Origin: Arthrobacter sp. Leaf234
Lineage (GTDB): Bacteria; Actinomycetota; Actinomycetes; Actinomycetales; Micrococcaceae
Reading direction: 5' to 3'
DNA length: 64,000 nt
NCBI RefSeq assembly: GCF_001422665.1
Contig: NZ_LMLU01000001.1
Span: 788,797-852,796 of the forward strand
The notes beneath the pieces were generated by a model. That model was not told where the DNA came from, did not search any database, and saw nothing but the letters and a program-made list of their open reading frames with translations. Below are positions 27,287-44,011 of this stretch, piece by piece (position 1 is the stretch's first letter; the number at the start of each line of letters is the position of its first letter). A program made the translations under genes and the position numbers.

Positions 27287-27640
27287 TCATTCCGGCAGCG
27301 AGCCCGGGAAGCGCCAGAGCCAGTCTCCGACCCGCCCCCAGGGCTGGCCGATGCCGGCTGACGCGGAGGGGAGGCCGGGAGGGGGCTCCGGTCGGTAGGG
27401 GGCTCTTGGCAGCGGAGGTTCCTCATCGATGAGTTCGTTGAGTGCCCGAGTGAGGAGGTTGCACTCTGTCACCGGCAGGGGCATGAGACCGCCGAGGTAC
27501 GCCTCGAGCTCGAACAGGTCGGCGTGACCGCCGGTCTCGACGTAGCGGCGCCCGACGTCCGCGAGCACGAAAGCCGCGGCGGTCATCGCCGCCTCGATCA
27601 GGCAGCGCTGCCGCTCCTCTTCTGCTGCATAGTCCGACAT
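27287..27640 (-). CDS. Stand-alone unrecognised GG-module protein (pair A)
   Basis: 117 residues. Residues about 15-72 form a module that recurs in three other proteins of this window (28051, 41995 and 42849): an aromatic helix, GG (37-38) followed by AD, ELEAYL (44-49) and the ALNELIDE helix (66-73). The Pro-rich tail that follows is not shared. The ATG at 27640 follows GGGA by 7 bases; an in-frame ATG at 27733 with AGGTGG is an alternative that would add 31 residues. Divergent from the GAF-linked gene at 28051, the same layout as at 41995/42849. I do not recognise the module. Confidence 0.65.
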   Translation of the reverse strand: MSDYAAEEERQRCLIEAAMTAAAFVLADVGRRYVETGGHADLFELEAYLGGLMPLPVTECNLLTRALNELIDEEPPLPRAPYRPEPPPGLPSASAGIGQPWGRVGDWLWRFPGSLPE

Positions 27641-28050
27641 GATCGTCCCGTTCTGGAACCCCGTCCCCACCACCATTCTTCCGAGAACCGCAGACGCGTC
27701 GCGGACGAACACCGGTGCCTGAATCATCGACATGAGGACCACCTGCCGTTACAAGCCGGACCCGGCAGATCACACCCGGCAGTCGTCCCTCGGTGCGAGC
27801 TGGTCCGGTCGACGCGGGATCAGGGGCCGATGATGGCACCATGGATCCGCGACACGGCTCCTCGGGTTCCACCGCGTATCGCGGTGACGAGGGAAGCGGC
27901 AGCAGGAGCGGGACAGCCGGCCCGCAGGATCTGTCCCGGACGATTCGGTGTCCGCTGTGATGGTGACTCGTCCTAAGGTGGAGGATCAGTCCGCCCGGGA
28001 TGCCGATGTCCGGGCGAAGAACGTTCGCCGAGTACGGAGCTTCGTCACTC
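27641..28050. promoter_or_regulatory. Divergent region of pair A
   Basis: 410 bases (308 if the longer start of the minus gene is used) between the two divergent module genes. GC-rich with no further gene seen. It should contain both promoters; no clear shared motif with the 42586-42848 gap was found by eye. Confidence 0.45.
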
Positions 28051-28923
28051 ATGATCAGTAGCTGCAGGCAGCAGTGGACAGCGGTCCAAGCCCTTCAGGC
28101 CGGGGGGCTCGATCCTTCCGATGCCTGGGTGTCGTATGTCGGCTTCGGTGGGGAGGCCGACGAGGTCGACGTGTCCGGCTACCTTTCCGGGCTGATAGGC
28201 CTGCCCCGTGCCGATCGCGATCTCCTCTCGTACGCCATCAACGAGATGCTCGCGGAGAAGGGACTCGTCATCACCGGCGCCCAGTACAGCCAGGACGGCG
28301 CAACCGGGAAGACCTGGGTCGCGGATGGCCTGTACCGGCTGCTCGTCGCCTCCAACGAGGTCAGCACCGGCCATCCATTCCGCCCACGGTCCGGGCGCCC
28401 TGCAGAGGGTGACGCGGGACGGCCGGAGGATCGGGCCGGGTTCCTGGCCCACGAGGCCAGACGATGCGATGCCCTGTCCCGGAGCGGGCTCCTCGATTCC
28501 GGCGCGGAGGAGCGCTTCGACAGGATCACCGCGAAGGCCCGCCGGCGTTTCGGAACGTCCTCGGCGTCCATCGCACTGATCACCGATGACCGGCAGGTCA
28601 TCAAATCCGTGGTGGGACCGATCGGGCAGGACCTGCCCCGCGACGTCGCTCTCTGTTCCCGCACCGTCGAAGCGGACCGCACCCTGGTCATCACCGATGC
28701 TCGCAGCGACCCCGACTACAGCGACCACCCCCTCGTCGCCGGGAGTCCCGGGATCCGGTTCTACGCGGGACACCCCCTGACCAGTGCCGACGGGTGGCGC
28801 ATCGGCTCCCTCTGCGTCATCGACGATCGGCCGCGGGCCTTCACACCAGCCGACGCACGCGACCTGCGGCTCCTCGCAGCCCAGGTGCAGCTCGAGATGT
28901 GGACCGGAGAACCACCGGGGTAG
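28051..28923 (+). CDS. GG-module plus GAF sensor protein (pair A)
   Basis: 290 residues. Residues about 8-70 are the shared module (W26, Y29, GG 33-34, YLSGL 44-48, AINEML 62-67). A linker (75-130) leads to a GAF domain at about 140-282: RFDRITAKARRRFG helix, SIALITDDRQVIKS, LPRDVALCSRTV, IRFYAGHPL and RIGSLCVIDDRPR, a GAF form often joined to GGDEF or kinase outputs. Here nothing follows, so it is a sensor without a known output unless the module is the output. ATG chosen with GGAG 11 bases upstream. Divergent partner: 27287-27640. Confidence 0.8.
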   Translation: MISSCRQQWTAVQALQAGGLDPSDAWVSYVGFGGEADEVDVSGYLSGLIGLPRADRDLLSYAINEMLAEKGLVITGAQYSQDGATGKTWVADGLYRLLVASNEVSTGHPFRPRSGRPAEGDAGRPEDRAGFLAHEARRCDALSRSGLLDSGAEERFDRITAKARRRFGTSSASIALITDDRQVIKSVVGPIGQDLPRDVALCSRTVEADRTLVITDARSDPDYSDHPLVAGSPGIRFYAGHPLTSADGWRIGSLCVIDDRPRAFTPADARDLRLLAAQVQLEMWTGEPPG

Positions 28924-29018
28924 ACGCGTTCCATCATCCGTGCGGTGGGCCCCTTCCCCGGGCAACCGGACACCGGTTCCGACCCCGTTCCGGGTGGACT
29001 GCGCCTCACTCCGCCGGG

Positions 29019-29975
29019 TCAGCGGGGAAGGGCCGCGATCCACTCGGAGAAGTCGGTGAGCTCGGTGCCGGTGACGACGGCGGCGGGGCCTGCGTCCATC
29101 GGATCGCTGAGGAGGGCCAGGGATTCGGCCGGCAGGTCCTTCGTGGACTCCCAGACGATCGACGTGGGCGATCCCGAGTCCGGCCAGCACAGGAAGACGA
29201 GAGGATCAGCGGTGGTGGACTCCACGATGCCGACACGGTGATGGAGCAGGTCCGCGAGTTCGCTCGTGAACATGGGCGCTGACACGTCTCCCGCAGTGAG
29301 GAGGACGCCTGATTCCAGGGTTCCCTTGCGTCCGCGGGGGAGCGGGTACGACTCAGCCCGTAGGCTGGCGCCCTGCCAGGGTGCGACGTCGCCTGGCACC
29401 GCGGGAGCCGTGGTCTGCTGCCGGGGGGTGCTCTGCTGCAGGAAAGCGACCAGGTCGGTGTAGCCGATGCTGATCCTGGTCGCCGTGAAGAGCATCCTGC
29501 CGCCCACGTCCCTGACGTCGACCCCGCCGAGGGCGTTGGGCGCCGGACGGACCGAACCGATGTCGGTCAGGGCGACGACCCGCGTCGCTCGGAACCACGG
29601 GCGGACCGTCAGGTGGTCGTCGAACGCCTCGACCCTGAACCGGTGGATGCCCATGGCGAGAACCACGAAGACCGCCCCGGCCACCGTGATCCCGGCCGCA
29701 CCGACCAGGGGACCCGGACCCTCCAACTCCTCGGTCCTGGCGACCGAGACGATCGTGAAGAATCCCCCGACAACCAGGAGGACGATGCCGAGCACCCGGA
29801 ACAGGGCAGCCTGCCAGCGCCGATTCCTCACGACGAACAGCGCCCCCGTGTCTGCATCCGTGCGAGCCGTTCCGCGACCGCTCCGGTCACCCCGGCGGAC
29901 GGCCCCGCCGACGATCACGGGGATCACGCTCGACAGCAGGACCGTGACGACCACGGGAATCATGATGGGAGACAT
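29019..29975 (-). CDS. Membrane-anchored hypothetical protein
   Basis: 318 residues. Three hydrophobic segments near the N-terminus (about 2-23, 59-76 and 90-108) are followed by a PH-like stretch (HRFRVEAFDDHLTVRPWFRATRVVALTDIGSV) and a soluble C-terminal domain of about 110 residues with a WxESTKDLPAESLALL segment resembling SseB/enhanced-serine-sensitivity folds only loosely. Function not recognised. Start at 29975 picked because it begins MSPIMIPVVVTVLL, a clean first membrane helix. Confidence 0.65.
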   Translation of the reverse strand: MSPIMIPVVVTVLLSSVIPVIVGGAVRRGDRSGRGTARTDADTGALFVVRNRRWQAALFRVLGIVLLVVGGFFTIVSVARTEELEGPGPLVGAAGITVAGAVFVVLAMGIHRFRVEAFDDHLTVRPWFRATRVVALTDIGSVRPAPNALGGVDVRDVGGRMLFTATRISIGYTDLVAFLQQSTPRQQTTAPAVPGDVAPWQGASLRAESYPLPRGRKGTLESGVLLTAGDVSAPMFTSELADLLHHRVGIVESTTADPLVFLCWPDSGSPTSIVWESTKDLPAESLALLSDPMDAGPAAVVTGTELTDFSEWIAALPR

Positions 29976-30100
29976 CCACCGAATGTAGCCCGTACCGCAC
30001 GTGCAGTGTCCTCGCCGCACAGAACACCGCAGCACGGGACAGCCCACACGCCCACTCCGGCAGGCGACGGCAGTGCTGTCGCAGGAGACAGTACCGGCAG

Positions 30101-31120
30101 TCAGGCCGAGCGTGAGGTGTTCCGCCGTGGTGCGTCACTCCGAGCACCGCGGCTGGCCGACGCCACGCGCGCGTGGCCGTCCGCCCTGGTATCGGCCGGA
30201 TACCCAGGTGCGGCGCCGACCCGGGAAAAGGGCTGCAGGTGCTGAGGATCGGGGCGTCGAAGATGACGCCTGCGGTGCAGGAGCGGGCTGATCACCGCCA
30301 CGCCTGCGTAGAGGGCGATCGCGAGCACCGTGATGGTCGCTCCCGGGGAGAGCGCATGGAAATACGTGATGGAGAGGCCGACGACGCAGACGGTTCCGCC
30401 CAGCACCATGGCCAGTCCCATGGTGGCGCGGAAGGAGGGTGCGATGAGCTGCGCCACGGCGACCGGCACGATCATCAGTGCCGACACCAGCAGTACGCCG
30501 ACCACACGCATGGAGATCGCCACGGTCAGCGCGGCGGTGACGGCGACCAGGATGTTCAGGGCCCGCACCGGCAGCCCGCTGGCGCGGGCGAACTCCTCGT
30601 CGTAGCAGAGGGCGAACAGTGCCGGCCGCAGGCCGAGGCCGACGCCGAGGATGAGGACGGCCAGTCCGGCGCTGAGCCACACGTCGAGGGAGTCGACGGT
30701 GGAGATGGATCCGAAGAGGTACCCGGTGAGATTCGCCGCTGTTCCGCCCGCGAGCCCGATGAGGAGCACGCCGCCGGCTATACCACCGTAGAACAGCATC
30801 GCCAGGGCGACATCGGCGCTGGTGCGGCCGCGTTCGCGGACGAACTCGATGAGGAGCGCCCCGATGATGGCGGCGGCGACCGCACCGGGCACGGCCAGGG
30901 CGTCGGCGGATGCGGTGCCGGCGGCAGCGCCGGCGAGCCATCCCATCGCGACACCTGTCAGGGCGACATGGCCGATGCCGTCGCCGAGCAGTGCAAGGCG
31001 GCGTTGGACGAGGTACGTGCCGATGACCGGAGCGCTGACACCGACGAGGCCGGCGATGAGCAGGGCCCGCTGCATCAGCTCACTGGACAGCATGGACAGC
31101 AGGGTGTCGAGGAAGGTCAT
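30101..31120 (-). CDS. aztB: Zinc ABC transporter permease AztB
   Basis: 339 residues with about eight to nine hydrophobic segments of the ABC-3 (ZnuB/MntB) family: LVGVSAPVIGTYLVQRRLALLGDGIGHVAL near the start and RALNILVAVTAALTVAISMRVVGVLLVSALMI later are its conserved blocks. The last 55 residues are a hydrophilic Arg/Pro-rich tail not typical of the family. Its start overlaps the ATPase stop by ATGA. With aztA, aztC and aztD it forms a high-affinity zinc importer. Confidence 0.88.
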   Translation of the reverse strand: MTFLDTLLSMLSSELMQRALLIAGLVGVSAPVIGTYLVQRRLALLGDGIGHVALTGVAMGWLAGAAAGTASADALAVPGAVAAAIIGALLIEFVRERGRTSADVALAMLFYGGIAGGVLLIGLAGGTAANLTGYLFGSISTVDSLDVWLSAGLAVLILGVGLGLRPALFALCYDEEFARASGLPVRALNILVAVTAALTVAISMRVVGVLLVSALMIVPVAVAQLIAPSFRATMGLAMVLGGTVCVVGLSITYFHALSPGATITVLAIALYAGVAVISPLLHRRRHLRRPDPQHLQPFSRVGAAPGYPADTRADGHARVASASRGARSDAPRRNTSRSA

Positions 31121-31947
31121 GATGATCCTCCCCCGCCGGTCGTGAGGTCGAGCGCGTGATGGTCCGGGTGGGGTGCGCGGCCCGTCCCTCGGACTTGCGC
31201 GTCCTCCCAGGCGTCGGAGGGCAGTGTGCTCCGGGCCCTCGACGGAGGGCCCTCGATGCCTGCGGCGTCGTCGTGCCTCACCCGGCCGTGGTCGAGGACG
31301 ACGGTGCGGTGGATCAGCGGGGCGAGGGCGCCGGGATCGTGCAGCACGACCAGGATGGTGGTTCCCCGCGCCTGGAGACCGCGCAGTGTGACCGCGAGTG
31401 CCGCCTGCGAGTCCTGGTCGATGCCGGACAGCGGCTCGTCGATGATCAGCAGGTCCGGCCGGCGGATCAGGGCGCGGGCGATCAGCGCGCGCTGCTGCTG
31501 TCCGCCGGAGAAGAGGTGCACGTTGTCGCGGGCGCGTTCGCGCAGACCGACCTGCCCGAGGGCGTCCTGCGCGCGCTCGCGAGCGTGCGGCCCGGGAGTC
31601 AGGCGCCGATGGTCCAGCAGGCCGGCGGCGACGACTTCCTCGGCGGTGACGCTCATGCCCGGCTGGGCGTTCACGCGCTGCGGGACGTACCCCACGCGTG
31701 ACCAGGGCACGGTGCGGCGCATCGCGAGGTCCGCGCCGTACACGGCGATCCGCCCGCGGGTGGCCGGCACCAGTCCCAGAAGGGCCCTGACCAGGGTCGT
31801 CTTCCCCGAGCCGTTCGCCCCGAGCAGGGCGAGGGTCTGGCCGTCCGCGACCTCCAGGTCGATGCCCTCGAGGACGGAGTGCGCGCCGAGCTGCACGTGG
31901 AGTCCGTCGATCTGCACCGCAGGATGCCGGCCGGCACGGTCACGCAC
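31117..31947 (-). CDS. aztA: Zinc ABC transporter ATPase AztA
   Basis: 276 residues. Walker A GANGSGKTT, Q-loop GYVPQRVNA, signature LFSGGQQQRAL, Walker B LLIIDEPLSGID and the switch His in VVLHDPG. The GTG start at 31947 overlaps the end of the binding-protein gene by 8 bases. The C-terminus contains several His residues (HPDHHAL) that might touch zinc, which is speculative. Energises import through AztB. Confidence 0.88.
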   Translation of the reverse strand: MRDRAGRHPAVQIDGLHVQLGAHSVLEGIDLEVADGQTLALLGANGSGKTTLVRALLGLVPATRGRIAVYGADLAMRRTVPWSRVGYVPQRVNAQPGMSVTAEEVVAAGLLDHRRLTPGPHARERAQDALGQVGLRERARDNVHLFSGGQQQRALIARALIRRPDLLIIDEPLSGIDQDSQAALAVTLRGLQARGTTILVVLHDPGALAPLIHRTVVLDHGRVRHDDAAGIEGPPSRARSTLPSDAWEDAQVRGTGRAPHPDHHALDLTTGGGGSS

Positions 31948-32875
31948 AGCCGAGGGCTTCCCGCAGGGCGCTGAGGTTGCCGCGCATCACGTCGAGGTAG
32001 TCGCCGCTGGTGTCCGCGTGCGATTCGATCGGATCGAGCAGCGCCGTCGTCACGCCGAGGTCCGCGGCCAGCGTCTCGGCGACCTTCGGGTTGACGAGCG
32101 ATTCCGTGAAGATAGTCGTGACGTCCTGGCCCTCGATGACGCGGCGGATCTTCGCGATCCGGGCCGGCGCCGGTTCGGCTTCGGGGTCGATGCCCGAGAC
32201 CCCGGTCTGCTCGAGACCGTAGCGGTCCGTCAGGTAGCCGTACGCCTCATGGGAGACGACGATTGTGCGGCGCTCGCACGTGGCGAGACCCGTGGTGAAG
32301 TCCTCGTCGAGGGTGGACAGCTCCTGGTTGAGCTGGTCGGCGTTCGCCGCATACTCGGCGGCGTTCTGCGGGTCCAGTTCGCCGAGACGTTCGGCGACCA
32401 CGTCCGTGACGTCGCCGAGGCGTTCCGGGTCGAGCCAGAAATGGGGGTCCCCCGCGCCGTCGTCCTCGGCGATGCCGCCGCCGGCGGTCGAGAGCTGAGC
32501 GGCATCCGCCACGTCGATGGCATGCTCCGGTGCGGTCTGCTCGACCGCTTCGTCCACAGCGGCCTGGAAGCCGGAGGCGTAGACCACCGCGGAGGCGTCG
32601 GCCAGCTCGGCGACCTTCGCCGGTGAGAGTTCGAGGTTGTGGGGCTCTGCGCCGGGCGGGGTGATGGTGCCGATCTCGACGGTGTCCCCGCCCACGCGCT
32701 CGACGACGAACTGGAGGGGGTAGAACGAGGTGAGCACCGTCATCGACGTACTGGTCGCGCCGGCGGGATCGGCGGGATCGGCGGGATCGGCGGGGTCGGC
32801 CGGCGGGGCGCAGGCGGACAGGGCGAGGGCTGCCATGACCGGCAGAACGAGGATTGGACGCGACAGGACGTTCAC
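31940..32875 (-). CDS. aztC: Zinc-binding lipoprotein AztC (cluster A-I)
   Basis: 311 residues. Lipobox ALSAC (Cys22), then a (PAD)4 spacer coded by a 9-base repeat, then a ZnuA/TroA fold with likely metal ligands in PPGAEPHNLEL, GDPHFWLDP, VVSHEAYGY and LLDPIESHAD. A His-rich loop as in ZnuA is missing, which fits AztC, a type that receives zinc from AztD. GTG start with AAGGA 7 bases upstream. The zinc assignment rests on the aztD neighbour and the Zur box. Confidence 0.88.
   Translation of the reverse strand: MNVLSRPILVLPVMAALALSACAPPADPADPADPADPAGATSTSMTVLTSFYPLQFVVERVGGDTVEIGTITPPGAEPHNLELSPAKVAELADASAVVYASGFQAAVDEAVEQTAPEHAIDVADAAQLSTAGGGIAEDDGAGDPHFWLDPERLGDVTDVVAERLGELDPQNAAEYAANADQLNQELSTLDEDFTTGLATCERRTIVVSHEAYGYLTDRYGLEQTGVSGIDPEAEPAPARIAKIRRVIEGQDVTTIFTESLVNPKVAETLAADLGVTTALLDPIESHADTSGDYLDVMRGNLSALREALGCA
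32761..32796. repeat. 9-bp repeat coding (Pro-Ala-Asp)n
   Basis: Four tandem copies of CGGCGGGAT (last copy with one change) within aztC, just after the lipobox. It codes the flexible spacer between membrane anchor and zinc-binding domain. Confidence 0.85.
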
Positions 32876-32974
32876 TGGGTTCCTTGAGGGGGTTCGGGGA
32901 GGGTCGGGGCCTGATCGATGACGGGCAGCCGCGACGACCCGATGGGCCGTCGCGACTGTTCGGTGCCGGTGGCC

Positions 32975-34321
32975 TCAGCCTTCGCCGTCGGCGTGGTCGT
33001 GTCCGTGGCTTCCCTCTCCGGTCACGACGGCGAGCTCCACCGGGGTCTCGGGAAGGTCGAAGCTGTCCAGCAGGGTTCCCTCGGCGACGTCGATGACATG
33101 CAGCTTCTTGGCGGACGGCTCCGTGACGTAGGCAAAACCGTCGGCTCCGACCTTGACGGTCGGGGCGGGGGACTGCCATTCCTCGGGCTCCTCCCAGGGT
33201 GCGACGACCTTCACTTCGTGGAGGACGGCGCCGCTCTCCTCGTCGAGGATGTTCAGTTCCCCGTCATAGGTCAGGACGAGGGCCTCACCGTCGGCGCCCC
33301 GGGCGAGTGAACGGAACCAGTACGCCGATCCGAGGTCGACGGTGGTCATGACGGAGGCGTGGGTGTCGATCAGCCCGACGCGGGTGGGGCGTTCCTGCTC
33401 CGCGTCAGGGTCCGTCTTGTAGTCGGCCAGGACGATCGGGGATTCGTGGCTGCCGAACTGGTTGCCGGAGCGCTGGTAGGGCTCGTCGACGGGGATCTTG
33501 TGGAACTCGCCGTCCCGATAGACCACCGGACCGTTCTCGCAGCCCAGGGAGACGACGTCGCCGCCCGCGGTCGGCATGGCAGCGGCTTCGCCGTGTACCC
33601 CCGGGCAGTCCGTCGTCTCTGCGAGGACCTCACCCTCGGGAGAGACGACCTGCACGGTGGAGCGGGAATCCGCTGTCCCCTGCGTCATCAGCAGATCACC
33701 CGACGTCAGGGGGACGGCCACCCCGTGGTGGGGGTCATCGGTGGAGAAGCCCTCGACCTCGTCCGGGTCGATCCGGCCGTCCTCGAATGCCGAGGTGTCC
33801 ATGATGCTGATCGCTCCGCTGCCGTCGGCGAAGAGCGCGGTCTTCCCCTCGTGCGCAACGACGTGTCCGGCCTCGGCGGCCTCCACCGTGGAGCCCGTGA
33901 GCGCAGGGGCCTGCTCGTAGTAGTGGTCGTGGTCCCCGTGCCCCTCGACGATCAGGCCGCTGTCGAACACCCGAAATTCCTTACCGGCACTGACGAGGAC
34001 GTGCCGTCCGTCGCCGGCCTCGTTGAGGCGCAGGAAGCCCTCGGACTCGGTGTTCGTCAGCACGTCACCGGTCTCGGTATCGACAGCCATGATGCCGCCG
34101 TCGTACGTCAGGACCGCCCGGGGTGCGAGACCGTCGACCTCCTGCCGATCCGTGGCATCGGCGCCAGGTGTGCCGGCTTCCGAGGGGCTGTCGGCGGTCG
34201 TGGCGGGACTCGCCGGGGCATCGGCCCCGGAGCCCGTCGAGGCCGGCGTGGAACACGAGGTGAGCACCAGGGCTGCGAGGACGGCGGTGGACAGGGGGAG
34301 GGTTCGACGATGTAGCGACAT
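32975..34321 (-). CDS. aztD: Zinc metallochaperone AztD (secreted beta-propeller)
   Basis: 448 residues. Lipobox-like LVLTSC (Cys23) after a short signal peptide, then a Thr/Ala/Pro spacer and a propeller domain. Zinc-related His clusters include GHGDHDHYYEQ (about 127-137), DDPHHG and the C-terminal SHGHDHADG. This matches AztD, which in Paracoccus hands zinc to AztC. It is the first gene of the operon, 99 bases before aztC, and its promoter carries a Zur box. The predicted -10 stands so close to the ATG that the message may be leaderless. Confidence 0.87.
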   Translation of the reverse strand: MSLHRRTLPLSTAVLAALVLTSCSTPASTGSGADAPASPATTADSPSEAGTPGADATDRQEVDGLAPRAVLTYDGGIMAVDTETGDVLTNTESEGFLRLNEAGDGRHVLVSAGKEFRVFDSGLIVEGHGDHDHYYEQAPALTGSTVEAAEAGHVVAHEGKTALFADGSGAISIMDTSAFEDGRIDPDEVEGFSTDDPHHGVAVPLTSGDLLMTQGTADSRSTVQVVSPEGEVLAETTDCPGVHGEAAAMPTAGGDVVSLGCENGPVVYRDGEFHKIPVDEPYQRSGNQFGSHESPIVLADYKTDPDAEQERPTRVGLIDTHASVMTTVDLGSAYWFRSLARGADGEALVLTYDGELNILDEESGAVLHEVKVVAPWEEPEEWQSPAPTVKVGADGFAYVTEPSAKKLHVIDVAEGTLLDSFDLPETPVELAVVTGEGSHGHDHADGEG

Positions 34322-34357
34322 ACCCCTAGGTTAGACGTAAATGAAGATCATTCTCAA
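34322..34357 (-). promoter_or_regulatory. Zur box and promoter of aztDCAB
   Basis: Minus strand: -35 TTGAGA (34357-34352), 18-base spacer, -10 TAACCT (34333-34328), then 6 bases to the ATG at 34321. The palindrome TGAGAATGATCTTCA (34356-34342) overlaps the -35 and spacer and matches the actinobacterial Zur consensus (TGA-AAT-ATT-TCA type). Zinc-loaded Zur bound here would shut the operon. Confidence 0.8.
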
Positions 34358-34443
34358 CGAGGGCGGGGAAAAGAGGAATTCGCCATGGAAGTGTCGGTGG
34401 CGGAATCTACCGTGGAGGCAGTCGACGCCGCGCGAAGGGATCC

Positions 34444-35511: not shown

Positions 35512-35528
35512 AGCCACTGCTTCCGCCG

Positions 35529-35560
35529 CCCGGCGATCCTGCCGTCGCAGGGGCGCCGGG
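35529..35560 (+). terminator. Hairpin terminator
   Basis: Two-part stem: CCCGGCG / CGCCGGG outside and CCTGC / GCAGG inside with a CGTC loop, separated by 2-base bulges. It lies 18 bases after the radical SAM gene stop. Confidence 0.5.
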
Positions 35561-35595
35561 ACGGGGGCGCAGGTGCTCCGTTGTAGATTGGCCGG

Positions 35596-36759
35596 GTGGT
35601 CTCAACCCTCGCGCGCGTGCTCACCGCACTGCTCCTCCTGTCCCTCTGCGCCTGCAACATCAACCCCACGGCCAGGCCGTGCCCGCCCATCGAGGGACGT
35701 GACCTCGCACCGGAGGTGGGCACCCTCATGGGCGTGAACCTCGAGTGGGGCAAGGAGACACTCGCCGAGTACGCCGGGAAGCTGGGGAGCCGGCCCGCCG
35801 TCGCCGTGTCCTTCGCCGACTTCCCCTTCGCCGCCGAGGATCGGGCCCTCATCGCCGCGGCGGCAGAACAGCTGCGTCAGGAGGGCGGCACACTCCTGCT
35901 GACCCTCGAGCCGCAGCAGGGTCTCGCGGCCGTGACGGCGGAGCGTGCCGACGAGCTCGCCGCGATGCTGGCGGGCTTCAACACCAGCGGTGTGCCGGTG
36001 ATCGTGCGTTTCGCCCACGAGATGAACGGCTCGTGGTACCCGTGGGGGCAGCAGCCCGCCGAGTACATCGACGCGTTCCGCCGGGTGTCGGACGCCGTCC
36101 ACGGCCGGGCTCCGGGCTCGGCGATGATGTGGGCTCCGAACTATGCCGGCGGCTACCCGTTCGCGGGCGGCGCCCACGAGGCGCGTCCCGGCACGGCCGG
36201 CTTCGCCGCTCTCGACACCACGGGCGACGGCGTGATCACGAGTGACGACGACCCCTACGCGCCCTACTATCCAGGCGACGACGCCGTCGACTGGGTGGGC
36301 ATGTCCCTGTACCACTGGGGGAGCACCTACCCCTGGGGCGAGAGCGAGATGCCCGAGGAGGGCAAGTTCGTGGAGCAGCTCACCGGCGCCTACGACGGGA
36401 AGAACGGGGACGATTCGATGCTCCCCGACTTCTACGCCGACTACGGGGTGCGGCACGGCAAGCCCGTCGCCATCCCCGAGACCGCGGCCCCCGTCACGGA
36501 CGGGATCGGCGACCTGCGGACCCTCAACATCAAGCGCGCCTGGTGGGAGCAGGTCTTCGACCCGGCGGTGCAGGAGCGGTTCCCGCACCTGAAGATGGTG
36601 AACTGGTTCGAATGGAACAAGGTGGAGCCCGAGGTGGGCTCCGCGGTGGACTGGACCGTCGTCGAGGACGCCGCGGTCCGTGCCGAATTCACCGCGGCGA
36701 TGCCCGAGTGGTACCGCTTCGCGGAAGAGCCCGACGACTGCGGGGAGCAGATCTCATGA
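35596..36759 (+). CDS. GH26 glycoside hydrolase, lipoprotein
   Basis: 387 residues. Signal peptide with lipobox SLCAC (Cys20), so it is anchored outside the membrane. The GH26 barrel shows the acid/base Glu in RFAHEMNGSWYPW (E142) and a likely nucleophile in PVAIPETAAP (E295). An insertion DTTGDGVITSDDDPY (207-221) is an EF-hand-like calcium loop. No N-terminal Ig domain, unlike the GH26 at 4129. The GTG start has no ribosome site; a -10-like TAGATT 6 bases before it suggests a leaderless message. Substrate probably beta-mannan or another beta-1,4 or mixed glucan. Its stop overlaps the next gene (ATGA). Confidence 0.85.
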   Translation: MVSTLARVLTALLLLSLCACNINPTARPCPPIEGRDLAPEVGTLMGVNLEWGKETLAEYAGKLGSRPAVAVSFADFPFAAEDRALIAAAAEQLRQEGGTLLLTLEPQQGLAAVTAERADELAAMLAGFNTSGVPVIVRFAHEMNGSWYPWGQQPAEYIDAFRRVSDAVHGRAPGSAMMWAPNYAGGYPFAGGAHEARPGTAGFAALDTTGDGVITSDDDPYAPYYPGDDAVDWVGMSLYHWGSTYPWGESEMPEEGKFVEQLTGAYDGKNGDDSMLPDFYADYGVRHGKPVAIPETAAPVTDGIGDLRTLNIKRAWWEQVFDPAVQERFPHLKMVNWFEWNKVEPEVGSAVDWTVVEDAAVRAEFTAAMPEWYRFAEEPDDCGEQIS

Positions 36760-37550
36760 CCGGTGGATCAAAGGACGACGCCGCGCGATCAGGCGGAGCG
36801 GCACAGCGCGGTGGCGGGCCGCAGGACGACTGGCAGCTCGCGCCCGCGCTGCCCCGGCCGGTCATCATGGACCAGTTCTGGGCGGACGCCGTATTCCTGC
36901 ACTGGCGCGTCGCCGCGGCCGAGGTGGCGCGGTACATGCCGCCCGGCGTGGTGCCGGACGAGGTGGACGGCTCCTCGTGGGTGGGACTCATCGGTTTCCG
37001 GATGATCGGTGCGGGGCTGGGCCGGGGCCTGCCGGTCCCGTACGTCGGTTCGTTCACCGAGGTCAACGTCCGGCTCTACTCGCGCGGCCCGGACGGCACG
37101 CGCGGGGTGGTGTTCGTGACCCTCGACGCGTCGCGGCTGGCCGTGGTCCTCGCCGCCCGGGCCGGCGGCATCCCGTACGTCTGGTCGAGATGCTCGCCCG
37201 TCCGGCGCGGGAGCGGCGACGGGCGGGAGTACGGGTACGACGTCGCCCGCTTCCGACGGCAGGCCGAGTCCCGCTTCGCCGTCCGGCCGGACGTGGCACG
37301 GACGGCGGTGGACCGCCTGTCCCTCGAGCTGACGGCGCGCTTCGGCCTGCACAGCACCCTGGCCGGCCGCACGCTGTACATCCCCAACACGCACACGCCC
37401 TGGCCGCTCCACCCCGCGACGCTCACGGAGCTCGACGACGGATTGCTGGGAGCCGCGGGGATCCGCGTCCAGGGTCCGCCGGATTCGGTGCTCTTCTCGC
37501 CCGGCGTGCAGACGCAGTTCGGCAGGCCGCGCGTCGTGCCCGCCGCCTGA
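36756..37550 (+). CDS. DUF2071 (YqjF-like) protein
   Basis: 264 residues. After a Gly-rich 30-residue lead come RPVIMDQFWADAVFLHWRV, the VARYMPPGVVPDEVDGSSWVGLIGFRM block and VPYVGSFTEVNVRLYS, the conserved core of DUF2071, an acetoacetate decarboxylase-like fold of unknown role. The final PPDSVLFSPGVQTQFGRP is the usual family end. Translationally coupled to the GH26 lipoprotein by ATGA, which is unexpected for this family. Confidence 0.85.
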   Translation: MTGGSKDDAARSGGAAQRGGGPQDDWQLAPALPRPVIMDQFWADAVFLHWRVAAAEVARYMPPGVVPDEVDGSSWVGLIGFRMIGAGLGRGLPVPYVGSFTEVNVRLYSRGPDGTRGVVFVTLDASRLAVVLAARAGGIPYVWSRCSPVRRGSGDGREYGYDVARFRRQAESRFAVRPDVARTAVDRLSLELTARFGLHSTLAGRTLYIPNTHTPWPLHPATLTELDDGLLGAAGIRVQGPPDSVLFSPGVQTQFGRPRVVPAA

Positions 37551-37768
37551 CCTCACCCTCGGTCGCCGTCGATCTGATGCCTCCTCCTGCCCGGGTGGCC
37601 GTGGAAAGGGCAGCCGCCCAGGGCGTGGAGGACGAGGACGGTCATCGACCGGACGCGAACCTGCATGCGATCACGGCACCGCCCACGCCCGGATTCCCCG
37701 ATGTTGTCCCGCGCCCGCAGGAGGAGGAAGGACGGCGACCGGACGCGGGTAGCCGGCGGGGGGAGGCG

Positions 37769-38473
37769 TCAGCCGCCCTCGAGCGTGACGCCCGACGGGC
37801 GGATGCTCAGCGTCTCGATGGTCGATTCGGGTGTGGCGTCGACGGCGAGCCGCACCGCTTTCGCGACCTGGCCGGGCTGGATCCAGGCCTCGGGACGGTA
37901 GTCCTTGCCCTCCCAGGCATGCAGCTCCTCCTGCATGTCCGTGGCGACGCGGCCGGGATGGATGGAACTCACCCGCACGCCGTGCGCCCGCTCCTCGTCG
38001 CGCAGCGCGTCGGTGAGGGCACGCAGCGCGAACTTCGTGCCGCTGTACACCGAGGAACCTGCGCCGGAGGAATAGCCCGACCCGCTGTTGATCGCGATCA
38101 CCTGGCCGCGCGCGCTGCGCAGCGCCGGCAGGAGCGCGCGCGTCAGCGATGCCACCGCGAACACGTTCACCTCGAAGCTCTCGCGCCAGGCGTCGTCGGA
38201 CAGGTCGGCGACGGAACCCATCCTGAGCACGCCCGCGGAGTGCACGAGGACGTCCAGCCGGGGGATGCCCGCCACGGCGGCGGCCACCTGACCGGCGTCG
38301 CGCAGCTCTGCCGCGAACGGTTCGGCGGACGGGAACGACGACGAGAGCTCGGCGAGCGCGGAGAGGTCGCGGCCGCCGAGCAGGAGGTGGTGCGTGGAGC
38401 CGAGCTCGTCGGCGATGGCGCGGCCGATGCCGCGGGAGGCGCCGGTGATGAGGGCGACGGGGTGGGGGGACAT
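37769..38473 (-). CDS. Short-chain dehydrogenase/reductase
   Basis: 234 residues. Cofactor motif TGASRGIGRAIAD near residue 10, active-site Ser in INSGSGYSSG, YSGTKFALR with the catalytic Tyr and Lys, and the loop SSIHPGRVATDM. A cytoplasmic NAD(P)-dependent reductase of unknown substrate. 218 bases separate it from the convergent DUF2071 gene; I see no gene there. Confidence 0.87.
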   Translation of the reverse strand: MSPHPVALITGASRGIGRAIADELGSTHHLLLGGRDLSALAELSSSFPSAEPFAAELRDAGQVAAAVAGIPRLDVLVHSAGVLRMGSVADLSDDAWRESFEVNVFAVASLTRALLPALRSARGQVIAINSGSGYSSGAGSSVYSGTKFALRALTDALRDEERAHGVRVSSIHPGRVATDMQEELHAWEGKDYRPEAWIQPGQVAKAVRLAVDATPESTIETLSIRPSGVTLEGG

Positions 38474-38541
38474 GCTGCCACCCTAGCAACGCCGGCAGGA
38501 CACGCGGACTGCCGACCGGTGCAGAGCGCGGACGGCCAGTA

Positions 38542-38582
38542 CGGGAACGCCCTTCCCTCCGAGGGAGGGGAGGGCGTTCCCG
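38542..38582. terminator. Strong hairpin terminator
   Basis: A stem of about 19 pairs (CGGGAACGCCCTTCCCTCC with its complement, one G-T pair) and a 3-base loop. It sits downstream of the minus-strand aldo/keto reductase and upstream of the SDR start, so it should separate their transcripts. Confidence 0.75.
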
Positions 38583-38601
38583 GGTGCCGCGTGTCGGCTG
38601 G

Positions 38602-39465
38602 TCAGAGGGCCGCGGAGAGCGCCTGGATCTCCTCGTCGGAGAGCTGGAGCTCGGCGGCCTTCGCCGAGTCGATGATGCTTTCCGGCCGCGAGGCGCCCGG
38701 GATGGGGATGACGGTCGGCGAGAGGGCCAGCTCCCAGGCCAGGCAGACCTGCTGGGGGCTTACCCCGTGCTTGTCCGCGGCCTCCTGGAACGGCGCGAAG
38801 GTCTCACCGAGCCCACCGGCCTTCTGGATGCCACCGAGGGGGCTCCACGGGAGGAAGGCGATCCCGTTCTCGCCGCAGTAGCGCAGCTCGTCCTCGCTGG
38901 AGCGGAAGGCGGGGGAGAACTGGTTCTGCACGGAGACGAGGCAGCCGTCGAGGATCTGGTTCGCCTTCCGGATCTGGTCCACCGTGGCATTGGAGATGCC
39001 GGCCATGCGGATCACGCCGTCGTCCAGCAGGTCCTTCAGGGCACCGATGGAATCCTCGTAGGGCACCTCGGTGTCCGGGCGGTGGAACTGGTAGAGGTCG
39101 ATCGCGTCGCCGCCGAGCCTCGCCAGGGACGCCTTCGCGGCCTCCTTGAGGTAGTCCGGATGGCCGTTCTGCGTCCACGAGCCATCACCGGGCCGCAGGT
39201 GCCCGCCCTTAGTCGCGACCAGCACGTCCGTTGCGCCCGACCCGAAGCTCGAGAGCGCCTTCGCGATGAGGGACTCGTTGTGGCCCACCTCGTCCGCGTC
39301 GCGGTGGTAGGCATCCGCGGTGTCGATCAGGGTCACGCCGGCCTCGAGGGCGGCGTGGATGGTGCGGATGGAACGGTCCTCGTCGGGACGACCCTCGATG
39401 GACATGGGCATGCCGCCCAGGCCGACTGCGCTGACGCTGGTACCGCCGAGTGTGCGTTGCTGCAT
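38602..39465 (-). CDS. Aldo/keto reductase
   Basis: 287 residues. Catalytic residues in LIDTADAYHRDADE (Asp, Tyr), VATKGG (Lys) and YQFHRPD (His); the cofactor part VIPIPGASRPESIIDS matches NADPH-dependent bacterial AKRs. The ATG at 39465 has AAAGGAG 7 bases upstream. Differs from the YghZ-like AKR at 22841. Ends at a strong terminator. Confidence 0.88.
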   Translation of the reverse strand: MQQRTLGGTSVSAVGLGGMPMSIEGRPDEDRSIRTIHAALEAGVTLIDTADAYHRDADEVGHNESLIAKALSSFGSGATDVLVATKGGHLRPGDGSWTQNGHPDYLKEAAKASLARLGGDAIDLYQFHRPDTEVPYEDSIGALKDLLDDGVIRMAGISNATVDQIRKANQILDGCLVSVQNQFSPAFRSSEDELRYCGENGIAFLPWSPLGGIQKAGGLGETFAPFQEAADKHGVSPQQVCLAWELALSPTVIPIPGASRPESIIDSAKAAELQLSDEEIQALSAAL

Positions 39466-39542
39466 TGTCGTTCTCCTTTGGATAGACGTGCTGCCCTCAT
39501 GGTAAGCACGCTTCAGGAGTTGGTGCCAATGACAACAAAGCC

Positions 39543-40673
39543 TCAGTCGACGGTGAAGATCCGCCGCACCACCCGGCCCTCGGCGAGGGCGTCGAGGCTC
39601 TCGTTGAGGTCGGCCAGGGGCCGGGTGTCGGTGTGCAGGAGTTCGACGGGGAGCTTCCCGCTCCGCCAGAGGTCGAGGTAGGCGGGGATGTCCCGCTCGG
39701 GCACGGCGTCCCCCATGTAGGAGCCGAGCAGCCGCCGGCCCATACCGGCGAACTGAAGGGCCTGGGTCGAGATCGCCTGATCGGGGTGGGGCAGTCCGAC
39801 GGAGACGAGCGCACCGCCGCGGGCGAGCAGCTGGAGCCCCGACTCCAGCACGCGGGCGCTGCCCACGGCCTCGATGACGACGTCGGCCCCGCCGTCCGTC
39901 GCCTGCCGCACGAGGTCCGCGGCGTCCTCCGGACCACCAGTGTGGTGCGCGCCGCACCGGAGACCGAGCTCCTGCTTGGACGGCAGGGGATCGATCGCGA
40001 TCACGGTGGTGCCCGCGATCTGCGCGGCGGCCATGACCGCCATCAGGCCCACGGCGCCCAGGCCGAAGACGACCACGGACTGTCCCGCTGCCACCTCCGC
40101 CGTGTTGAGGACGGCGCCGATGCCCGTGAGCGCCGCGCAGCCGAACATCGCGGCGATGTCGAACGGCACGTCGTCGTCGATCACCACCAGCGATTCCCGG
40201 GCCACGACGGCGTAGTCGGCGAAGGCGGAGACGCCGAGGTGGTGGTTGATGCGCTCTCCGTCGGCGGTGGCCAGGACGGCCGGACCGTGCAGCAGGTCAC
40301 CACTGCCGTTGGCCTCGGCGCCGCGGTAGCAGAGCGCCGGCCGCCCGGCGGAACAGGCGCGGCAGGAGCCGCAGGCGGGTACGAAGACGAGGACCACGTG
40401 GTCCCCGGGCCGGACGTCGTCGACGCCGTCGCCCACGCTCTCCACGATGCCGGTCGCCTCGTGACCGAGGGCCATCGGCAGGGGGCGGACCCTGGACCCG
40501 TTGATCACCGAGAGGTCCGAGTGGCAGAGGCTGGCCCGGGCGATCCGCACGCGGACCTCACCCGCACGGGGTGCGGGCACGGGAACCAGGTCCAGTGCGA
40601 GGGGCTTGCTCCGTGCATACGGGGCAGGCAGTTCGGCGGTACGCAGTACCGCGGCGCGCATCATCGGGCTCAT
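39543..40673 (-). CDS. Zinc-dependent alcohol dehydrogenase (class III-like MDR)
   Basis: 376 residues. Catalytic zinc ligands in SLCHSDLSV and LGHEATG, structural zinc Cys in FVPACGSCRACSAGRPALC, and the Rossmann motif VFGLGAVGLMAV. It resembles NAD- or mycothiol/formaldehyde-type dehydrogenases of actinobacteria, but the substrate is open. The ATG at 40673 follows GAGGGG by 5 bases. Divergent from terC. Confidence 0.88.
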   Translation of the reverse strand: MSPMMRAAVLRTAELPAPYARSKPLALDLVPVPAPRAGEVRVRIARASLCHSDLSVINGSRVRPLPMALGHEATGIVESVGDGVDDVRPGDHVVLVFVPACGSCRACSAGRPALCYRGAEANGSGDLLHGPAVLATADGERINHHLGVSAFADYAVVARESLVVIDDDVPFDIAAMFGCAALTGIGAVLNTAEVAAGQSVVVFGLGAVGLMAVMAAAQIAGTTVIAIDPLPSKQELGLRCGAHHTGGPEDAADLVRQATDGGADVVIEAVGSARVLESGLQLLARGGALVSVGLPHPDQAISTQALQFAGMGRRLLGSYMGDAVPERDIPAYLDLWRSGKLPVELLHTDTRPLADLNESLDALAEGRVVRRIFTVD

Positions 40674-40795
40674 GGCATCCCCTCGTCATAAAGGTACGGA
40701 CTGCGCCAGTCTAGGGGGAGGCCAGTACCGTTACGATCACGACCGGGGGCGGACCGTACCGGCTCGCCGCCGGCATCTTCTGAGGAGCCTGCATC

Positions 40796-41992
40796 ATGGA
40801 AGTACCGTTCTACGTCTGGACCGCCACGGTGATCGGCATCGTGGGACTGCTGCTCTTCGACTTCTTCTTCCACGTCCGTAAGGCGCACACGCCGACCCTC
40901 CGCGAGTCCGCCATCTGGTCCTCCATCTATGTGGGGATCGCTCTGGTCTTCGGCATCGGCGTCCTCCTGTTCGGCGGACCGACCATGGGCACCGAGTACT
41001 TCGCCGGCTACGTCACGGAGAAGGCGCTCTCCGTGGACAATCTGTTCGTCTTCCTCATCATCATGTCCAGCTTCAAGGTGCCACGGGCGGACCAGCAGAA
41101 GGTGCTGCTCTTCGGCATCGTCTTCTCGCTGATCGCCCGGACCGGGTTCATCTTCCTCGGCGCCGCCCTCATCAACAGCTTCGCCTGGGTGTTCTACATC
41201 TTCGGGCTGATCCTGCTCATCACCGCCGGCAACCTGCTGAAGCCGGCCGGGCACGACGACGACGGCGACAGCCTGGTGATCCGGCTCGCCAAGCGCTTCC
41301 TCCCGGCGTCGGAGCACTACGACGGCGACAAGCTGTTCACCATGGAGAACGGCAAGCGCGTCCTCACGCCGATGCTCCTCGTGATGGTGGCCATCGGCGC
41401 GACCGACATCCTGTTCGCCCTCGACTCCATCCCAGCGATCTTCGGCCTCACCCAGAACACGTTCATCGTGTTCACGGCCACGGCCTTCTCCCTCATGGGG
41501 CTGCGGCAGCTGTTCTTCCTCATCGACGGGCTGCTCGACCGCCTCATCTACCTCTCCTACGGACTGGCCGTCATCCTCGGCTTCATCGGCGTGAAGCTCA
41601 TCCTGCACGCGCTGCACGAGAACAACCTCCCCTTCATCAACAACGGCGAGCACGTGGAGGTCGTGGAGATCAGCACGGGCCTGTCGCTGAGCGTGATCCT
41701 CGGGGTCCTCGTCGTGACCGTGCTGGCCTCGGTGCTGAGCCCCAAGGGCCGGGCGAAGAACGCGATCTCCGGAGCCAAACGGCACGCTGCCGAGTACCTG
41801 GACCTCACCTACGAGACGGATATCAGCGAGCGCGAGAAGATCTACGCGCGGCTGTGCGCCGAGGAGCGGGACCTCAGGACCTTGCCCGAGAAGTTCAAGC
41901 GGCTCATCCGGAACGAGACCGAGTTCATGGAGATGATCCGGAAGGCGCACGCCGAGCACGACGCCGCGCTGGAGCGCGAACCGGGACGGTAG
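40796..41992 (+). CDS. TerC/Alx family membrane protein
   Basis: 398 residues with about eight hydrophobic segments. Family blocks: YFAGYVTEKALSVDNLFVFLII (about 68-89) and the later ATDILFALDSIPAIFGLT, both with acidic residues in membrane helices that coordinate metal ions. TerC/Alx proteins export manganese or help metal loading of secreted proteins. The 85-residue cytoplasmic tail is charged. GAGGAG upstream of the ATG is 9 bases away. I checked the 122-base leader for a manganese riboswitch and did not find one. Confidence 0.9.
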   Translation: MEVPFYVWTATVIGIVGLLLFDFFFHVRKAHTPTLRESAIWSSIYVGIALVFGIGVLLFGGPTMGTEYFAGYVTEKALSVDNLFVFLIIMSSFKVPRADQQKVLLFGIVFSLIARTGFIFLGAALINSFAWVFYIFGLILLITAGNLLKPAGHDDDGDSLVIRLAKRFLPASEHYDGDKLFTMENGKRVLTPMLLVMVAIGATDILFALDSIPAIFGLTQNTFIVFTATAFSLMGLRQLFFLIDGLLDRLIYLSYGLAVILGFIGVKLILHALHENNLPFINNGEHVEVVEISTGLSLSVILGVLVVTVLASVLSPKGRAKNAISGAKRHAAEYLDLTYETDISEREKIYARLCAEERDLRTLPEKFKRLIRNETEFMEMIRKAHAEHDAALEREPGR

Positions 41993-41994
41993 GG

Positions 41995-42585
41995 CTAGCG
42001 TCGCTCGCGCGAGATGATCCGGCCGATCACGCCGCTGTCGAGGATCTCGCCGAGCAGCTCGAGGGGCGCGCCGGGCGGCAGGGGGACGCCCGGGCGGCCC
42101 CTGAGGGGGCGGACGTCGAGGCCCGTCAGGAAGAGCGAGCCGAAGGTGTCGGGCGAGTGCGGACCCACGAGGTCGTCCACGGGGACGCGGAAGGGCCCTT
42201 CGTCGAGTCGGCCTGCGTCCTCGCCCTCCGTGCCCGGTCCGACGCCGGGCAGGATGCAGCCCGGCAGGGTGTCCTCGAACAGGCCGTCGTCGAGCATCGC
42301 ATCATGGAGGACGACGTCGGCAACCGTGCGGTCCGTGACGGCTGTCCAGGAGTAGGGGGCGCGGCAGAGGGCCGCCTCGTCGGCGGGGCAGGCGTCGTCG
42401 ATGAGTTCGTTGACGGCCTGCGACACGAGATCCGCGTCGTCGTCGTCGAGGGTGTACACGCCGTACAGGTAGGCGTCGAACTCGAAGTAGTCGGTCCAGC
42501 CGCCCATGTTGCAGTAGTGCATCCAGGTCTCGTAGGTCGAGAGCCCGGCGAACTCCATGGCCGTCAGGGTGTCGTCATTCTGCAT
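41995..42585 (-). CDS. Stand-alone GG-module protein with extra domain (pair B)
   Basis: 196 residues. Residues about 5-66 are the shared module: W21, Y24, GG 28-29, FEFDAYL (34-40), AVNELIDD (57-64). The remaining 130 residues are unlike its pair-A relative and contain PFRVPVDDLVGPHSPDTFGSLFLTGLDV; no known family was recognised. Stop lies 2 bases from the terC stop (convergent). It is divergent from the GAF-linked module gene at 42849, repeating the layout of pair A. Confidence 0.68.
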   Translation of the reverse strand: MQNDDTLTAMEFAGLSTYETWMHYCNMGGWTDYFEFDAYLYGVYTLDDDDADLVSQAVNELIDDACPADEAALCRAPYSWTAVTDRTVADVVLHDAMLDDGLFEDTLPGCILPGVGPGTEGEDAGRLDEGPFRVPVDDLVGPHSPDTFGSLFLTGLDVRPLRGRPGVPLPPGAPLELLGEILDSGVIGRIISRERR

Positions 42586-42848
42586 CGTGGTCAGCTCCTC
42601 GTCGCGGCCCCCAGCTGAGCCTCGACCGATCCTCGCAACCGCACGTCAACTGAAGCGGTCGCTGACGCTCAGTTTTGGCGCAAGCTCGCGGCAGTACCTC
42701 AAGGCAGCCCGTCGAAACCCCCGCAAGACTCCGGAGGGGGACACATCCGCCGGCCCTGCCGCGTCGAATCATGCTCACCGGGGCCGTGGCGTGTGTCACT
42801 CCGGCCGACCGCGCGTCCACCGGGACGCCGACGAGAACGGGACCGAAC

Positions 42849-43646
42849 GTGAAAGCAGTCACGCAGCAGTGGTTGACCCGGCAGGTGCTGGCGGACGTCG
42901 GCGCGGACCCCTTCGAGGCGTGGGTCGTGTACGTCGGTCTCGGTGGGTCCGCCGACGGCGTCGTGGTGGACGGGTACCTCAACGGCCTGCTGACCGCCCG
43001 GCCCGAGGACCGCGACCTCATCGCCCGCGCCGTCAACGTCCTCGCCGAGGAGACGCCCGGTACCGGGACCCGGGCGCCGTCGGGGAGGCAGCCGGCATGG
43101 GCTGACCGGGAGGAGCCCTTCGCCTCCTGGAGCACCTGCGGCATCTCGCCCGCGGACCTGATCGCACCCCTGGTCAGCGCGCGCCGCGCCGAACTCCTGC
43201 GCCTCGAATCGCTCGAGCGGACCGGTCTCCTCCGCTGCGTCGGCGAGGACCAGGTGGACGCCATCACGGCGGAGGCGGCGCGCCGCTTCCCCGGCTGCTC
43301 GTCCTCGCTGGCCCTGATCACCCGGGACCGGCAGGTCATCACCTCGATCTCCGGGACCATCGGGACGGACGGCCCGCGGGAGACGTCCTTCTGCCACCGC
43401 ACGGTCGGGGATGCCCAGCCCTTCGTCGTCACCGATGCCGCCCTGGATCCGCGGGTCTCGTCGAACCCCCTCGTGACCGGAGGACCACGCATCCGCTTCT
43501 ATGCCGGATACCCGGTGCTCGGCCCGGGGGGCTGGCGGATCGGGTCGCTGTGCGTGGTGTCGGACACACCGCGTGGCTTCTCTCCGGCGGATGCGCGGAC
43601 GCTGGAGCTCCTCGCGGCCTCGGTGCAGGGACTGATCGGCGTCTAG
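42849..43646 (+). CDS. GG-module plus GAF sensor protein (pair B)
   Basis: 265 residues. Module at about 5-67 (W25, Y28, GG 32-33, VDGYLNGLL 40-48, AVNVLAEE), linker to 118, then a GAF domain (about 125-262) with AEAARRFPGCSSSLALITRDRQVITS, FCHRTVG, IRFYAGYPV and RIGSLCVVSDTPRGF. GAF Cys/His details differ from pair A (FCHRT against LCSRT). No output domain follows. GTG start with GGGA upstream, the same element as before the pair-A stand-alone gene. Divergent partner: 41995-42585. Confidence 0.8.
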   Translation: MKAVTQQWLTRQVLADVGADPFEAWVVYVGLGGSADGVVVDGYLNGLLTARPEDRDLIARAVNVLAEETPGTGTRAPSGRQPAWADREEPFASWSTCGISPADLIAPLVSARRAELLRLESLERTGLLRCVGEDQVDAITAEAARRFPGCSSSLALITRDRQVITSISGTIGTDGPRETSFCHRTVGDAQPFVVTDAALDPRVSSNPLVTGGPRIRFYAGYPVLGPGGWRIGSLCVVSDTPRGFSPADARTLELLAASVQGLIGV

Positions 43647-43683: not shown

Positions 43684-43998
43684 TCAGTGGGACAGCTTCA
43701 GCCCGACGACGCCGCCCACGATCATCAGGACGAACACGATCTTCAGGAGGGACGCGGGCTCGGCGCCCGTGGCCATGGCATAGACGACGGTCAGCGACGC
43801 CCCGATCCCCACCCAGACCGCGTAGGCGGTACCGATGGGCAGCGAGCGCATCGCGTAGGCCAGGCCCGCCATGCTCGCGACGATCGCGACGGCGAAGACG
43901 AGGCTCGGCACGAGTCTGCTGAAGCCCTCCGACCTGCCGAGGGCTGTTGCCCAGACGGCTTCGAGGATTCCGGAGATGATGAGGACGAGCCAGGCCAT
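43684..43998 (-). CDS. gdx: SMR guanidinium exporter Gdx (SugE)
   Basis: 104 residues, four membrane helices. The start MAWLVLIISGILEAVWATALG has the essential Glu13 of small multidrug resistance proteins, and this N-terminus is the SugE/Gdx form rather than EmrE/Qac. Gdx exchanges protons for guanidinium. The guanidine-III riboswitch directly upstream strongly supports that role. ATG with GGGAG 6 bases upstream, next to the riboswitch. Confidence 0.9.
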   Translation of the reverse strand: MAWLVLIISGILEAVWATALGRSEGFSRLVPSLVFAVAIVASMAGLAYAMRSLPIGTAYAVWVGIGASLTVVYAMATGAEPASLLKIVFVLMIVGGVVGLKLSH

Positions 43999-44011
43999 GA
44001 TGAACTCCCAC

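Follow-up and report, generated by a model that had tools for sequence, protein, structure and literature searches.

Regulators that carry an ANTAR domain control transcription termination or translation through RNA, and in AmiC-AmiR the ANTAR protein AmiR is held by the co-encoded AmiC. Protein antagonists are also known for other RNA-binding regulators, such as anti-TRAP for TRAP and FliW for CsrA, and it is open, as far as we know, how the many actinobacterial GAF-ANTAR proteins are kept off or kept specific. Here, we describe a protein module encoded four times in a 64,000-nucleotide stretch of the Arthrobacter sp. Leaf234 genome (referred to as the window; contig NZ_LMLU01000001.1, positions 788,797 to 852,796), a family regularly found beside genes for GAF-ANTAR proteins and which, on balance, is likely to be a dedicated partner that controls them.

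EutV and similar antiterminators bind RNA through their ANTAR domain (PMC8934654), and the NasS-NasT complex is described as dissociating on nitrate or nitrite, which frees the RNA-binding NasT (PMC3795266). In several genera, including Arthrobacter, certain species appear from a survey of ANTAR RNAs to have close to 10 target RNAs in a genome, or even as many as 36 (PMC8164766); such numbers fit an enlarged ANTAR network. The likeness of the present family to NasS-NasT and AmiC-AmiR lies in an ANTAR protein encoded alongside a dedicated partner. Control of ANTAR proteins by a co-encoded partner is already known; the module partner is of another kind, being small (about 100 residues), present in many copies and with no sensor domain found, while its ANTAR protein has a GAF or PAS sensor of its own. 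NasS and AmiC, in contrast, are larger and sense the signal themselves.

A module family without a name

The initial annotation, made from the sequence alone, had proposed a module of about 55 residues shared by four genes in two divergent pairs, in each of which a minus-strand gene without GAF faces a plus-strand gene carrying module plus GAF. The four open reading frames lie at the positions it had given (Table 1) and are clearly related to one another, with pairwise E values of 1.5e-9 to 3e-66. In pairwise blastp, the two stand-alone proteins share 38% identity over 71 residues (E 9e-12) and the two module-GAF proteins 45% over 282 residues (E 3e-66), while within the pairs the stand-alone and GAF proteins share 31% over 103 residues (E 7e-10) and 37% over 51 residues (E 1.5e-9). 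The twofold layout is confirmed by the positions of the reading frames and by Pfam, which finds GAF in both plus-strand proteins and has no match in the other two. The module itself exists as proposed but is slightly longer, at about 65 residues, with the core Q..T..A...A.L...ELW..Y...GG.....EVEAYL.GL..LP..ERDLLA.AVNEL.

Used as a single query, stand-alone protein 1 had 12 further matches across the genome with E <= 0.001, including stand-alone protein 2 and module-GAF protein 1 but not module-GAF protein 2. A profile of 11 copies, the window's four among them, scored those four at E 2e-32 to 1e-28 and located 19 copies in the Leaf234 genome, 15 of them outside the window; 12 are stand-alone and seven are fused ahead of a GAF part, a status set by a GAF motif and checked with Pfam in three of the seven.

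The initial annotation knew of no family name for the module. None of the libraries Pfam, NCBIfam, PHROGs and PADLOC has a model that matches it in the four window proteins, and 76 stand-alone members gave no credible module match in Pfam or NCBIfam. The lowest Pfam row among these members, Metal_resist, came from one member (E 0.0028), cIII matched three of the 76 (best E 0.012), eight more Pfam rows came from single members each (E 0.066-0.25) and NCBIfam gave two single-member rows (E 0.044 and 0.086); all were treated as chance, as was the best PDB sequence match, the anti-CRISPR AcrIF4 (E 0.095-0.4). No relative of the module was found in the viral contigs searched, and the one phage record that matched did so through its GAF part only. 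The family is real and unnamed.

Linkage to ANTAR genes

In Pseudarthrobacter and Arthrobacter loci, stand-alone genes immediately follow a GAF-ANTAR gene, and in some loci GAF-ANTAR and module genes take turns, each pair being succeeded by another. Among loci picked by module presence, 92 of 111 stand-alone copies (defined as those without a GAF motif) have a same-strand ANTAR domain upstream within 1.5 kb, mostly 54-114 nucleotides away. With start codons chosen by script, stop-to-start spacing falls between -23 and +22 nucleotides in 91 of 93 ANTAR-module pairs, and stop and start codons that almost touch in this way suggest translational coupling. Pfam finds both GAF and ANTAR in all five module-adjacent GAF-ANTAR proteins submitted to it, and in a sixth ANTAR protein an ANTAR match together with a PAS fold just below the cut-off. 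A module gene also stands ahead of a PAS-ANTAR gene on one Arthrobacter plasmid and on two Leaf234 contigs; since GAF and PAS sensors alternate beside the module, the shared element is ANTAR more than GAF.

As a control that avoids the selection of loci, all module and ANTAR places were listed for whole genomes of five relatives plus Leaf234. Across these six genomes, 29 of 102 modules have a same-strand ANTAR domain no more than 400 nucleotides upstream, compared with 0.15 expected by chance, and 49 have an ANTAR domain no more than 1.5 kb away in either direction; for Leaf234 alone the counts are 5/19 and 9/19. Copy numbers of module and ANTAR rise together in 59 genomes (Pearson 0.93, Spearman 0.91) and in the 38 genomes of the genus itself (Pearson 0.92, Spearman 0.87), correlations that take no account of ancestry, and the largest expansion comprises 34 module copies beside 42 ANTAR domains in one Arthrobacter genome.

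The module itself is not ANTAR: none of the 76 members matches PF03861 in Pfam, and hhalign of module against ANTAR stays at the level of shuffled columns. An apparent ANTAR-module fusion in L099 was rejected, its N-terminal half being another frame of the upstream gene and its module end being shifted. In the Leaf234 genome, the GAF-ANTAR gene ahead of the best-scoring module copy is broken by an in-frame stop codon (L057:6100-6798, contig C7). On the short contigs C2 and C11 (L062, L064, L067), module copies adjoin PAS-ANTAR genes, and the ends of both contigs carry what by eye is the same hydrolase-like gene; these contigs are possibly plasmid pieces.

Co-divergence of module and ANTAR neighbour

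The GAF domains of module-followed ANTAR proteins form a distinct subtype, in that half-set profiles place 42 of 46 and 42 of 48 held-out sequences correctly, both halves containing close relatives of each other. Distances among 88 stand-alone modules track those among their GAF-ANTAR neighbours (r 0.83), and for 29 pairs in 13 multi-pair loci the correlation is 0.90, against a mean of 0.07 and a maximum of 0.85 in 2000 within-locus shuffles. Coupled module and GAF-ANTAR paralogues co-diverge, with a pairing specific to the paralogue.

Stand-alone protein 1 of the window resembles the coupled copies. Among its 13 best other matches listed, 12 are ANTAR-coupled (42-51% identity), and the single uncoupled one, with 54% identity, lies on an Arthrobacter plasmid. 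The closest relatives of stand-alone protein 2 are its own orthologues, and those of the two GAF proteins are mostly other GAF-linked copies.

A candidate partner of ANTAR antiterminators

Taken together, the linkage and co-divergence make it reasonably likely that the module is a small acidic four-helix interaction domain serving as a dedicated partner that controls ANTAR antiterminators, and the suggestion of the initial annotation that it might be an interaction part is plausible. The module is associated with ANTAR; that it binds the ANTAR protein, and with what sign, we infer. In such a mechanism, the module protein would bind its GAF-ANTAR protein as the latter is made, and the bound protein would be kept off its RNA targets, or have its oligomeric state set, until the sensor domain meets its signal. 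In the module-GAF form, a flexible linker would tie a second GAF sensor to the partner domain, and the window copies would be derived members acting in trans on ANTAR proteins encoded elsewhere. Anti-TRAP and FliW offer a likeness in that each is a small protein blocking an RNA-binding regulator, as the module protein would; they belong, as far as is known, to other families. Among the papers listed in searches of open-access literature, no title or abstract opening describes a small ANTAR partner of this kind.

The same gene linkage and co-divergence would also suit a positive co-factor that joins the RNA complex or aids ANTAR dimerisation without any inhibition, and the sequence does not fix the sign of the effect. 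We nevertheless regard such a role as improbable, as the strong acidity of the module makes contact with RNA unlikely and the co-encoded partner AmiC acts by holding its ANTAR protein. NasS, too, acts by holding NasT (PMC3795266).

Several observations weigh against a partner of ANTAR proteins, beginning with the disregard of ancestry in the copy-number correlations. Of the 102 modules in the six genomes, 53 have no ANTAR domain within 1.5 kb, and no ANTAR gene occurs in the window or anywhere within 140 kb of its four copies. GAF-linked copies lie directly behind an ANTAR gene in only 3 of 13 cases in the loci set, and ANTAR proteins without a following module are common (110 of 210 ANTAR matches in loci). 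Operon mates may be co-regulated without contact, the paralogue-pairing test depends on a small number of old duplications and is no proof of contact, and the counts of nearest relatives are biased by the over-representation of ANTAR-coupled copies in the loci set (108 of 149 stand-alone copies). The rarity of the module outside the genus (see below) points the same way. A co-encoded ANTAR gene, as for an AmiC- or NasS-like partner, is found for the family and not for the four window copies; nor do the 76 members match the AmiC or NasS ligand-binding families in Pfam or NCBIfam.

Roughly half of the copies, among them the four of the window, lack an ANTAR neighbour and may act in trans. A more far-reaching proposal, which we consider rather unlikely in its entirety, is that the modules form a new family of acidic, RNA-mimicking anti-antiterminators of helix-turn-helix (HTH) fold within an Arthrobacter network, where coupled partners would hold their own ANTAR protein and orphan or GAF-tethered copies would act in trans. 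Such a network over ANTAR proteins may be likened to the families of anti-sigma and sigma factors. If the partner role is true, a small, co-evolving and dedicated partner would be a missing part in the control of these regulators. It would offer a concrete way into genomes that encode 20-40 ANTAR proteins, and a likely role for genes listed as hypothetical protein in plasmid records.

Predicted structure and charge

An AlphaFold2 model of a stand-alone window protein with 75 other sequences has four helices (residues 3-22, 26-35, 42-49 and 57-73), with block-mean predicted local distance difference test (pLDDT) values of 94-97 for residues 11-70; the tail is predicted with low confidence. For a module-GAF protein, modelled from eight sequences only, the same four helices are followed by about 50 residues of low confidence and then by the GAF domain (mean pLDDT 68). 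Of the 94 PDB matches that Foldseek returned with an E value under 10, none fell under 0.001 (best 0.66). By title, about 41 of the 50 best rows can be recognised as repressors or XRE-type proteins; the remaining rows are MPnS (6), Oct4 (2) and one arbitrium entry. Among the first ten, most superpose with a root-mean-square deviation of 1.2-1.8 Å over 58-61 columns and a target template modelling (TM) score of 0.5-0.7. In the Foldseek viral library, about 23 of the 50 best rows are named HTH, XRE, repressor or DNA-binding (best E 0.22).

These matches raise the alternative that the module is a divergent Cro/CI (XRE) HTH domain still binding DNA, such that module-GAF proteins would be ligand-sensing DNA-binding regulators and stand-alone proteins small repressors, often in ANTAR operons. 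By eye, its YLxGxxxLP is similar to the G-x(3)-P seen in XRE domains, and the hhalign local score against the 17 XRE-type domains of the Leaf234 genome, 13.1, exceeds the mean for shuffled columns (8.5, standard deviation 1.6). That score nevertheless stays under the shuffle maximum of 13.7, hhalign probabilities reach only 0.2-1.8% and none of the 76 members matches HTH_3 in Pfam; membership of the XRE family by sequence was rejected on these grounds. No Foldseek E value falls below 0.2. The surface is also different. Residues 39-50, which would form the recognition helix, carry a mean net charge of -3.4, no position among them being basic in more than about 1% of sequences, and the module core averages -6.5 (range -15 to -2), compared with +1.4 for the 17 XRE-type domains and +1.2 for the 19 ANTAR domains of the same genome. 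Such acidity makes DNA binding doubtful, and we give a DNA-binding role little credence. The predicted fold superposes on lambda-repressor-like (Cro/CI) domains at no significant E value, and the module is possibly an HTH-like fold that has become an acidic domain for protein interaction.

Distribution of the module and of the ANTAR-module pair

Among the best 80 loci matching the window copies, the nearest named ones are from Arthrobacter agilis and A. bussei. The module occurs in 38 of 97 genomes, Leaf234 included: in 35 of the 38 that belong to the same genus, in 3 of the 21 from the rest of the family and in none of the 38 from other families of the order; within the genus, genomes hold 0 to 34 copies. 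A phylum-wide sample of 396 genomes gave five with a match, including Leaf234 and one marginal match, in a search that scored 12 candidates per genome and may have missed copies. The module is also encoded on plasmids from Arthrobacter, Kocuria, Rhodococcus and Nocardia (10 of 72,556 records); five of the records list a gene under the match, four as hypothetical protein and one as GAF domain-containing protein. Two contigs titled Vibrio cholerae 35D (L072, L105) encode modules very like those of Arthrobacter; the assembly is probably contaminated or wrongly labelled.

Outside Arthrobacter, Pseudarthrobacter, Paenarthrobacter, Paeniglutamicibacter and Sinomonas, 13 loci were considered (L092, L117, L133, L146, L173, L174, L177, L229-L231, L233, L234 and L237), leaving out the marginal match L175 and also L172, where the pair lies at 53 nucleotides but whose genome, from another genus of the family, could belong to one of the genera just named. 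In nine of the 13, an ANTAR gene lies 54-98 nucleotides upstream of the module; these come from Lentzea, a Mycobacterium bin, an Actinomycetes bin, Kocuria rosea, two Rhodococcus pyridinivorans plasmids, Nocardia farcinica and two further genomes. On both R. pyridinivorans plasmids the module is spread over two frames and may be broken. In Kocuria flava the ANTAR gene lies about 750 nucleotides upstream of the module, and three of the 13 loci have no ANTAR gene in the stretch examined. In Lentzea (L117:5983-7443), the gene directly behind the ANTAR gene encodes an N-terminal module and a C-terminal SpoIIE domain. A cold-shock protein gene lies near the module/GAF-ANTAR pair on plasmids of Kocuria and Rhodococcus (L229:5524-5730; L230:4939-5142; L234:3938-4141).

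The divergent pairs of the window

Both window pairs are divergent, with 447 and 270 nucleotides separating their module matches, and the identities of 45% and 38% between them indicate that they do not stem from a recent duplication. From their repeated layout, the initial annotation had taken the pair to be a working unit. Looking for the arrangement elsewhere, we found it among 4 of 11 close module-module neighbours in the six genomes, comprising both pairs of the window plus two orthologues of pair 2. A further comparison covered 14 regions chosen as likely orthologues from the listed genome matches, a fifteenth region holding another module copy. Of these 14 relatives with an orthologue of stand-alone gene 2, a divergent GAF gene is present in five, with one frame broken, and was not found in nine, while 12 of the 14 orthologues adjoin the same TerC-like gene (named by eye). 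Similarly, a relative of module-GAF protein 1 with 94% identity occurs in genome G031, where no stand-alone gene 1 adjoins it.

The divergent arrangement is real and has been conserved in part, but the stand-alone gene persists without a GAF neighbour, and the main arrangement of the family is the ANTAR-linked one. That the stand-alone and module-GAF proteins of a pair are partner and antagonist of each other would suit the presence of two such pairs in the window and the retention of pair 2 in 5 of 14 relatives, even with one GAF gene broken. We nonetheless consider this very unlikely, given the nine relatives in which stand-alone gene 2 has no such neighbour, the lone GAF gene of G031 and the ANTAR gene as the commonest neighbour of stand-alone copies, and the idea of a working unit is accordingly not upheld. 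A homotypic contact between modules is possible.

Within the gap of pair 2, a block CTCAGTTTTGNCGCAA (Table 1) lies upstream of stand-alone gene 2 and is also found in L213, L214, L216, L217 and L220, where the GAF gene was not found. Its presence where that gene is absent indicates that it belongs to the stand-alone gene, and it is probably a promoter or operator of stand-alone gene 2. A longer form of the block occurs once in the genome. An operator common to both divergent gaps was rejected, as these share just one 10-mer, in inverted sense.

Table 1. Module genes and other features of the window, in window coordinates.
Feature	Position	Strand	Remarks
Stand-alone module protein 1	27287..27640	(-)	117 residues; module core about 27392-27616
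Module-GAF protein 1	28051..28923	(+)	module about 28063-28296; disordered linker; GAF about 28507-28893
Stand-alone module protein 2	41995..42585	(-)	196 residues; module about 42346-42585; long C-terminal tail, aligned full length in relatives
Intergenic stretch of pair 2	42586..42848		block 42668-42683 conserved in relatives
Module-GAF protein 2	42849..43646	(+)	module about 42858-43085; GAF about 43263-43625
Exporter-like gene	about 43684-44000	(-)	small multidrug-resistance type, named by eye
Guanidine-III riboswitch	44009-44067	(-)	Rfam, 54.9 bits
c-di-GMP-I-GGC riboswitch aptamer	5384-5458	(-)	Rfam, 67.8 bits

Two riboswitches were also identified in the window. One is a c-di-GMP-I-GGC aptamer; the other, of the Guanidine-III class, lies directly upstream of the exporter-like gene, as expected for a guanidinium exporter.

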